NCBI GenBank assembly: GCA_021740995.1
Contig: JAIOYR010000010.1
Coordinates: 1-64,000 of the forward strand
Direction of reading: 5' to 3'
Source of the DNA: Taibaiella sp.
Lineage (GTDB): Bacteria; Bacteroidota; Bacteroidia; Chitinophagales; Chitinophagaceae
DNA: 64,000 nt
Shown: piece after piece, positions 63,028 to 63,593 of the stretch
Layout of the letters: every line of letters starts with the position of its first letter
Numbering within the stretch: the stretch's first letter is position 1
Position numbers and translations under genes: made by a program
The notes under the pieces: generated by a model
What the model saw: the letters and a program-made list of their open reading frames with translations, nothing else
The model's database searches: none
What the model was told of the DNA's origin: nothing

Positions 63028-63055
63028 TTTTCTACTGATTATTTCCTTACCTTTG
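63028..63055 (+). promoter_or_regulatory. Candidate promoter of the tRNA-Arg locus
   Basis: TACCTTTG (63048-63055) matches TAnnTTTG, with a TTTT (63028-63031) 16 nt upstream in place of TTTG. It would start a transcript about 60 nt before the first tRNA that runs through the GIY-YIG gene to the second tRNA. Confidence 0.45.
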
Positions 63056-63122: not shown

Positions 63123-63215
63123 GGCCCGGTAGCTCAGCTGGATAGAGCACCAGCCTTCTAACCTGCCTGCGGTAGGCAGGGCTGGGGGTCATTGGTTCGA
63201 ATCCAATCCGGGTCA
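63123..63215 (+). tRNA. tRNA-Arg(UCU), interrupted by a 19-nt palindrome in the anticodon arm
   Basis: 93 nt. Acceptor arm GGCCCGG / CCGGGTC (one G-U pair), D arm GCTC/GAGC, anticodon stem CCAGC / GCTGG, loop CTTCTAA with anticodon TCT (63157-63159), variable loop GGGTC, T arm ATTGG / CCAAT and discriminator A. No CCA is encoded. Between loop position 38 (63161) and stem position 39 (63181) lies CCTGCCTGCGGTAGGCAGG, a palindrome with a 7-bp stem. Without it the gene would equal the intact copy at 63519-63592. A functional tRNA would require removal of the insert, and no bacterial enzyme for this is known, so this copy is probably inactive or specially processed. Confidence 0.85.
63162..63180 (+). 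repeat. 19-nt palindromic insertion in the tRNA-Arg anticodon arm
   Basis: CCTGCCT / AGGCAGG arms with a 5-nt loop GCGGT. The insertion borders are unambiguous because the sequence on both sides matches the intact copy exactly. No second copy of this palindrome was seen elsewhere in the window. Confidence 0.9.
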
Positions 63216-63244
63216 CGGATATTGGATAAAACTGATAAAGGAAA

Positions 63245-63499
63245 ATGTTCTTTGTATATGTAATAAGAAGTACGGTTAATGGTCACTTTTATGTGGGTAT
63301 GACGCAAGACGTAACAAAACGAGTCATCATGCATAACAATGGAGGTAATCGCTCTACCAAAGCCCATCGACCTTGGACACTCTTCTTTATGGAAGAATAT
63401 TCGAATAGGATTGAAGCAAGAAAAAGAGAAGTATATTTGAAGTCGGGAATAGGGAAAGATTATATTAAAAGTAAGTGGCAAAATTGCCAAATATTATAA
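63245..63499 (+). CDS. Small GIY-YIG nuclease family protein between two tRNA-Arg copies
   Basis: 84 aa single-domain GIY-YIG protein. The two signature strands are FVYVIRS (~3-9, in place of GIY) and HFYVGMTQD (~14-22, in place of YIG). RVIMHNNGGNRSTKAHRPW (~27-45) fits the conserved H-N-x-G...ST...P region, and EARKREVYLKSGIGKDYIKS carries the catalytic Glu (near the E in AREVYL-type context). Small genes of this type are common in Bacteroidota and often lie near tRNA or rRNA genes. It starts 29 nt after the first tRNA and ends 3 nt before the second repeat copy, filling exactly the space between them. Confidence 0.85.
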   Translation: MFFVYVIRSTVNGHFYVGMTQDVTKRVIMHNNGGNRSTKAHRPWTLFFMEEYSNRIEARKREVYLKSGIGKDYIKSKWQNCQIL

Positions 63500-63502
63500 A
63501 AA

Positions 63503-63593
63503 GTACACCAGCACTGCCGGCCCGGTAGCTCAGCTGGATAGAGCACCAGCCTTCTAAGCTGGGGGTCATTGGTTCGAATCCAATCCGGGTCAC
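63503..63593 (+). repeat. Right copy of the tRNA-Arg direct repeat
   Basis: 91 nt: the flank GTACACCAGCACTGCC, the full tRNA and one following nucleotide. It is the uninterrupted partner of 63107-63216. The two copies start 396 nt apart. Confidence 0.9.
63519..63592 (+). tRNA. tRNA-Arg(UCU), intact
   Basis: 74 nt with the standard cloverleaf: acceptor GGCCCGG / CCGGGTC, D arm GCTC/GAGC, anticodon stem CCAGC / GCTGG, loop CTTCTAA with anticodon TCT reading AGA, variable loop GGGTC, T arm ATTGG / CCAAT. The discriminator is A and CCA is not encoded. A strong terminator follows 9 nt later. Confidence 0.95.

Follow-up and report, generated by a model that had tools for sequence, protein, structure and literature searches.

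REP palindromes are small, dispersed and intergenic elements whose type is tied to the lineage of a RAYT (TnpA-REP), and they carry a conserved tetranucleotide, GTAG or GGAG, 5' of the palindrome. The palindromic elements of Rickettsia are longer and are found in frame in protein genes. Concerning nucleases, SLX1 is a eukaryotic repair subunit, and tRNA-linked GIY-YIG nucleases are, to our knowledge, known only from phages and organelles. Short hairpin elements have spread in sponge mitochondrial genomes and are seen as selfish or invading DNA (PMC2800124), and the short palindromic hairpin elements of Volvox are regarded in the same way (PMC2670323). SegB, a GIY-YIG endonuclease of T-even phages, is described as cutting inside tRNA genes and as being required for tandem tRNA amplification; its preferred cut motif is taken here as a T-loop sequence, and the same source describes free-standing phage GIY-YIG homing endonucleases as linked to many tRNA isotypes (PMC13096335).

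The window, by which we mean the whole analysed stretch of 64,000 nucleotides from Taibaiella sp., contains two copies of a tRNA-Arg(UCU) gene, both on the + strand. The left copy (63123..63215) is broken by a 19-nt palindrome with a 7-bp stem, CCTGCCTGCGGTAGGCAGG (63162..63180, + strand), which we assigned to type A (CCTGCC..GGCAGG). The insert follows nucleotide 39 of the gene and is thus exactly between the canonical nucleotides 38 and 39. Its junction is unambiguous, with neither a target-site duplication nor loss or gain of bases, and the left copy without the insert is identical, letter for letter, to the intact right copy (63519..63592). ARAGORN called two tRNA-Arg(tct) genes (63123-63216 and 63519-63593), and the Rfam tRNA model, the sole family listed at the broken-copy locus, gave 58.4 bits for the broken and 70.5 bits for the intact copy. 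Sequence, ARAGORN and Rfam hence agree on the palindrome at 38/39 and on the identical remainder, as claimed in the sequence-only reading of this DNA, and the check with tRNA models which that reading proposed returned both copies as tRNAs. This is a warning for annotation, since a broken copy is called a tRNA by ARAGORN and lies above the Rfam threshold. A DNA search of the own genome (97% complete) returned 63519..63592 as the only intact tRNA-Arg(UCU). The interpretation offered by the sequence-only reading, a mobile palindrome in a spare copy, stands, but it missed the ORF at 63245-63499 and with it the cassette described below.

This ORF (63245..63499, + strand) encodes 84 aa and, according to PF01541 and a family alignment, is a single-domain GIY-YIG nuclease (UPF0213/SLX1-like). 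The PF01541 match reached 54.5 bits (cut-off 22.6; E 1.5e-14), and in the 13-row family alignment Y5, Y16, G18, R26, H30 and E62, presumably the catalytic residues, are among eight invariant positions. Its nearest solved sequences are the UPF0213 entries 1zg2 (E 1.6e-13) and 1ywl (E 2.7e-13) and SLX1 7cq2 (E 9.9e-9); this likeness to UPF0213 and to the SLX1 structure-specific nucleases is one of sequence alone. Between the two tRNAs, the ORF list holds the GIY-YIG gene and an antisense ORF of 110 aa, which overlaps the tRNA and was left out of the domain search; no integrase, as expected between a tRNA and its displaced copy in a tRNA-integrating island, is listed there. Matches to the homing-endonuclease families phrog_314 and phrog_5123 are weak (about 32 residues; E 1.5e-4 and 4.5e-4), and two other members of the nuclease family gave no match to the PHROG homing-endonuclease families. 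A phage origin was considered and rejected: a tblastn search of phages with the nuclease gave three weak matches, and a pattern scan of viral contigs found none. A RAYT-driven REP was rejected as well, since Y1_Tnp (PF01797) had 0 matches in the own genome while it was present in 5 of 14 control genomes. Unlike SegB, the nuclease described here is chromosomal, has 84 aa and matches PHROG homing endonucleases weakly (PMC13096335).

Sixty relatives were searched at the DNA level and the loci were then fetched. Among the 29 same-genus loci examined, eight contain the block of broken tRNA, GIY-YIG ORF and intact tRNA next to the same upstream gene; besides the source genome these are relatives G024, G034, G011, G020, G009, G002 and G029. 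The remaining 21 loci have one plain intact, palindrome-free tRNA; for 17 of them the upstream gene could be identified. The absence of the palindrome from all 21 single tRNA-Arg(UCU) genes examined in the genus is in line with the earlier proposal that the insertion is tolerated in a spare copy. Six of the 35 genus genomes are outside this count: G005 and G021 gave no match, the matches in G003, G023 and G027 were left unfetched, and in G006 the contig ends. This last contig (L068, G006:C106:3400-3731) ends exactly at the tRNA-Arg 38/39 insertion point, as if the palindrome had broken the assembly. The blocks differ in detail. The contig of G020 stops short of the right tRNA, the broken copy of G029 has its palindrome in the D loop and no T arm, and in G002 palindromes are present both in the D loop and at 38/39. 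The same insert is kept in species whose nucleases are down to 64-73% identity, and in G034 and the source genome the rest of the broken copy still matches the intact copy. Several other broken copies have decayed by truncation or substitution or are without T arm or acceptor pairing. Two further sites are of note. About 45 kb from the main locus of G009, on the same contig, there is an array of partial tRNA-Arg(UCU) copies (L060, G009:C1:179300-181000, 660-1165), three of them with a palindrome at 38/39, followed by terminator-like hairpins. G034 harbours a second damaged tRNA-Arg (L062, G034:C128:5400-6700) with palindromes in the D loop and at 38/39 and with further degenerate pieces nearby.

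The arrangement is a general one. We searched 35 genus genomes (29 with a match) and 46 phylum genomes (27 with a match) for the nuclease family. When all 173 distinct GIY-YIG places were pooled, 22 of them from pattern-selected loci, a same-strand tRNA was present within 300 nt in 98 and a second tRNA copy across the nuclease gene in 73. Confined to the 151 places derived from the nuclease search, an intact same-strand tRNA was found within 300 nt in 84 and a second copy in 63, none of which (0/63) was called a tRNA of normal length by ARAGORN. For the 100 nuclease matches with E<1e-14 the corresponding numbers are 73 and 56. A GIY-YIG nuclease beside tRNA genes, with an intact tRNA within 300 nt of 73 of 100 strong matches, is what the cassette has in common with SegB (PMC13096335). 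The order of the parts is damaged copy, nuclease, intact copy at Arg(UCU) and Leu(CAG), and intact copy, nuclease, damaged copy at Leu(CAA), Arg(UCG), Lys, Ala and Asp; L221, L222 and L223 are tandem arrays of tRNA, nuclease, damaged copy, nuclease and damaged copy. At L221 (G029:C30:138900-141400), three nuclease genes follow tRNA-Ala(GGC) in alternation with damaged 3' parts; upstream there are five incomplete tRNA-Ala pieces. Single-domain GIY-YIG genes are thus often found between an intact tRNA and a damaged copy of the same tRNA.

The damaged copy usually bears a hairpin palindrome. In a paired test of 43 cassettes, a stem of at least 7 bp was found in 30 second and 4 intact copies (1.5% in shuffled sequences), and a stem of at least 8 bp in 15 second and 0 intact copies; the window for second copies was up to 25 nt longer, the shuffles were made on that longer window, and the test omitted 30 second copies that have no T-loop motif. 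Leaving out nine pairs selected by the palindrome pattern (counted by hand), the numbers are 22 versus 4 of 34 for stems of at least 7 bp and 8 versus 0 for stems of at least 8 bp. In other isotypes a longer hairpin replaces the anticodon arm while D- and T-arm sequence is kept, and some broken copies are without T arm or 5' half. Leaving the palindrome out in silico restored a normal tRNA call at some loci and gave none at others; this was done for 80 of the 119 scan stretches (L102-L181), after which 30 places were picked by eye for closer study; the later palindrome statistics used all loci.

From the alignments we named three palindrome types. Type A (CCTGCC..GGCAGG) is found at Arg(UCU), Arg(UCG) and Leu. 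Type B comprises hairpins with CCG..CGG arms, mostly TCCCG..CGGGA, at Lys, Ala, Val, Asp, Pro and others, and type C is CCCGCCCGG-like and occurs at Arg(CCU) and Arg(CCG). With types B and C the arm is often partly replaced, rather than interrupted by a clean insertion. Two type C inserts (L227 and L228) are about 28 nt long, CCCGCCCGG..CGGACGGG, and are located in the D loop of Arg(CCU) and at 38/39 of Arg(CCG). Palindrome type tracks the nuclease lineage across tRNA isotypes and not the identity of the tRNA. In a tree of nuclease-search genes only, the minimum of two type changes suffices for the 43 labelled genes (10 A, 29 B, 4 C); 19 unlabelled genes were left out and type B is broadly defined. 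When the types were shuffled among isotypes, a test which removes only part of the relatedness, 0 of 5000 shuffles were as low as two changes. Addition of the pattern-selected and Patescibacteria genes results in six changes for 60 genes. Since the trees are built on 77 columns and many of their forks are open, we regard the pairing of type and nuclease as well supported, but not the deep branching.

Both type A and type B also occur scattered through the genomes. The 19-mer CCTGCCTGCGGTAGGCAGG occurs once in the window, where 0.00 are expected, and has exact copies at 10 places in the own genome, a draft of 151 contigs, with 0 for a reversed-pattern control. Allowing up to 3 mismatches gives 38 matches on the forward and 38 on the reverse strand; as a palindromic unit reads alike on either strand, many places are counted in both. 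If the loop is free to vary, the type-A family occupies about 34 places in this genome. A tiny palindromic mobile element, with tRNA function kept by the second copy, had been the earlier suggestion, and it holds in the light of this dispersed family and of its presence at the same point in other species. In the phylum sample of 46 genomes, at least five type-A palindromes were found only in G000 (34), G066 (17) and G088 (5), which are exactly the genomes of that sample in which a type-A cassette was found; these counts include the palindrome of the cassette itself, the other genomes have 0-2, and the cut-off of five was set after the counts were seen. In the genus, the type-A copy number is higher in nine cassette genomes than in 26 others (one-sided p 2.6e-4). 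No type-A cassette was detected in G001, G004, G016 and G033, with 9-20 palindromes, or in G006 with 37, and since these genomes are palindrome-rich the nuclease may be unneeded or may have been lost. Outside the genus, G056 and G050, from other families of the order, have 14 and 6 type-A palindromes. Type B reaches up to 155 places per genome; G031, with 155 type-B and 44 type-A palindromes, has the top type-B count among the 60 genomes searched.

The insertion of type A is precise, causes no target duplication and is mostly found where the loop of the D or anticodon arm meets the 3' strand of its stem. This junction holds 27 of 37 type-A tRNA insertions whose flanks match the intact tRNA of the same locus, 15 between D loop and 3' stem and 12 between anticodon loop and 3' stem. 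Counted as distinct isotype-positions the share is 8 of 17 (an assumed background of 3 in 60 gives p 6e-7). A directly 5' of the palindrome or T directly 3' of it was seen at 33 of the 37 tRNA insertions and, for the own-genome loci examined, at 24 of 25 distinct copies including the tRNA insert (expected share 0.49). Five copies are located at one point of a genomic repeat, between CTTTG and TGGTG in three and in a one-base variant in two; the uninterrupted form of this repeat occurs 16 times in the own genome, and because the repeat itself spreads, the five copies may descend from fewer insertions. The loci L002, L013, L018, L019, L025 and L026 of the own genome are intergenic repeats built on CCTTTGTGGTGAA, some of them with the palindrome at a fixed point. 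Like the elements of Rickettsia, to which the sequence-only reading had likened the insert, the present ones are palindromic, dispersed and inserted in genes. The comparison is nevertheless weak, since the present unit has 19-20 nt and 0 of 27 copies examined, the tRNA insert included, lie inside an ORF of at least 120 aa.

The cassette is not confined to one phylum. Among the matches listed in a scan of named genomes, the type-A palindrome was found in tRNA copies of candidate-phylum bacteria, while many scan matches were ordinary tRNA-Pro(GGG) anticodon arms. Twelve candidate-phylum loci were found by pattern, 11 of them in what we take to be Patescibacteria lineages, and a single-query tblastn detected no adjacent GIY-YIG gene at these 12. 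The nuclease family is encoded in 11 of the 12 genomes, with 60 matches in total; the genome without a match is that of the twelfth locus. Twelve of the 60 matches, on which the statement about Patescibacteria is based, were fetched, and 11 of the 12 adjoin a tRNA. One Patescibacteria genome has the full block at Leu(CAA) (L332) and Leu(GAG) (L342), with type A at the D-loop junction. The nucleases of these two loci group with those of the Bacteroidota Leu cassettes (SH-aLRT 99), and this grouping, drawn from the gene tree, suggests that the cassette may have passed between phyla, here Bacteroidota and Patescibacteria. Among the pattern-selected loci, the block is also present at L188 (Elusimicrobia) and at L142 (Kiritimatiellae), where the palindrome is shorter (15 nt). 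In a Flammeovirgaceae MAG (L105, 3757-3884), two tandem tRNA-Leu fragments with type A are located beside intact tRNA-Leu genes at a contig end, and no nuclease was seen near these fragments.

The occurrence of the arrangement at many tRNA genes across phyla points to an undescribed tRNA-targeting mobile element. We consider it rather probable that a GIY-YIG cassette parasitises tRNA genes by homing to them, that a mobile palindrome is its partner, and that the interrupted tRNA is the spare copy disabled by this palindrome. The nuclease would cut tRNA genes at or near the D and anticodon arms, and repair of the break would duplicate the tRNA around the nuclease gene and spread the cassette. 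The palindrome would be a small companion element that is set into a cut, as REP palindromes accompany their transposase. We infer that it is moved by the nuclease; a shared history of nuclease and palindrome in one cassette would lead to the same pairing without catalysis. In the spare copy, the palindrome would remove the cut target, guard against recutting and abolish tRNA function, and the host would then rely on the intact tRNA beyond the nuclease gene. If the two copies recombined on the wrong side of the palindrome, only the broken tRNA would remain. With the spare copy dead and such a crossover leaving no working tRNA, the cassette would be locked in.

Alternatively, a SegB-like GIY-YIG nuclease could duplicate tRNAs, the spare copy would decay, and palindromes of the host would land there through unrelated machinery and be tolerated as neutral debris. 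This is unlikely in our judgement, although it deserves to be taken seriously: the palindromes are dispersed and those examined are intergenic, spare copies decay through truncation and substitution as well, the 21 sole tRNA-Arg(UCU) copies are palindrome-free, and a cassette was not detected in some palindrome-rich genomes. Debris of this kind, however, does not account for a palindrome type that tracks the nuclease clade across isotypes, for type A being at one structural junction far above chance, or for an insert that is kept while the nuclease has diverged to 64-73% identity and the rest of the copy is intact in G034 and the source genome.

An improbable alternative is that the interrupted tRNA has a function as RNA, namely as a structured leader or tRNA-like element which controls or protects the GIY-YIG message in a common transcript. 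Conservation of the 38/39 insert across species would fit such a role, and so would the exchange of the anticodon arm for a longer hairpin in other isotypes, where D- and T-arm sequence remains. The 93-nt interrupted form also folds better than shuffled sequences (z -2.6), but the minimum-energy fold is non-cloverleaf for the interrupted and the intact tRNA-Arg(UCU) alike, so the fold test says little. A leader is difficult to reconcile with the reversed order in the Leu(CAA), Arg(UCG), Lys and Ala cassettes and with broken copies from which the T arm or the 5' half is absent. Far less probable still is a bacterial mini-intron that is removed from the tRNA precursor, although the insertion in the anticodon loop is exact and near the usual intron position and the sequence is otherwise intact in some species. 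An insert of 19-20 nt leaves no room for a group I or II intron, the same palindrome is found between genes, in D loops and in stems, and in the described cassettes an intact copy is present alongside while broken copies decay. The excised intron, which the sequence-only reading had named as its second option, is further disfavoured by broken copies without T arm or acceptor pairing and by the replaced anticodon arm in other tRNAs; most likely, the palindrome does not act as an intron. A one-off mutation or an assembly artefact, conceivable in a draft of 151 contigs, can be dismissed, because the 19-mer is present 10 times in the genome and the same insert recurs at the same point in independent assemblies of other species and genera.

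Returning to the tRNA-parasitising cassette, what is new is that palindrome, damaged tRNA copy and nuclease lineage go together; each part has precedent. In the open-access literature, judged mostly by titles and abstracts, we found no description of tRNA, GIY-YIG nuclease and palindrome together in bacterial chromosomes. In the parts of the SegB description compared, a palindrome in a spare tRNA or dispersed partner palindromes as in the present cassette are not mentioned (PMC13096335). The sponge and Volvox elements are organellar and, in the descriptions compared, without a linked nuclease or tRNA cassette (PMC2800124, PMC2670323). As with REP and RAYT, the present palindromes are small, dispersed and intergenic, and their type is tied to the lineage of one nuclease gene; unlike there, PF01797 was not found in the own genome, the nuclease is of the GIY-YIG type and palindromes are also located in adjoining tRNA copies. 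It is tempting, if somewhat bolder than even chances would allow, to generalise that single-domain GIY-YIG nucleases each own a partner palindrome, place it at the loop/stem junctions of hairpins in tRNA genes as well as elsewhere, and home from one tRNA gene to another and across phyla (Bacteroidota, Patescibacteria), with the palindrome disabling the spare tRNA and locking the host to the cassette. They would then form a new class, the GIY-YIG counterpart of RAYT/REP.

This is of interest for several reasons. GIY-YIG genes linked to tRNAs turn out to be common in bacterial chromosomes, where they go with specific palindromes and extend as far as Patescibacteria. A nuclease shown to move a palindrome would be a new class. 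Such movement would also be a possible origin of the dispersed palindromic repeats in RAYT-free genomes, and it would offer a parasite a means to resist deletion, since the sole working copy of an essential tRNA would belong to it.

Finally, promoter-like boxes were noted by pattern count. Upstream of the broken tRNA, a candidate -7 box, TACCTTTG (63048..63055, + strand), lies at -75 from that gene and a second box, TAATTTTG, at -47; we take TACCTTTG to be of the Bacteroidota TAnnTTTG type. Inside the nuclease ORF, the five codons AGA GAA GTA TAT TTG (63425..63439, + strand) are fixed in 10 genomes, with a codon share of 1.00 as compared to a mean of 0.68 over 47 conserved columns; one genome has Leu in place of Val at the third of them. 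Three more codons also have a share of 1.00, two of them the second and third of the ORF. The five-codon run, in the last third of the ORF, contains a box, TATATTTG (63432-63439, + strand), which may be a candidate promoter for the downstream intact tRNA.
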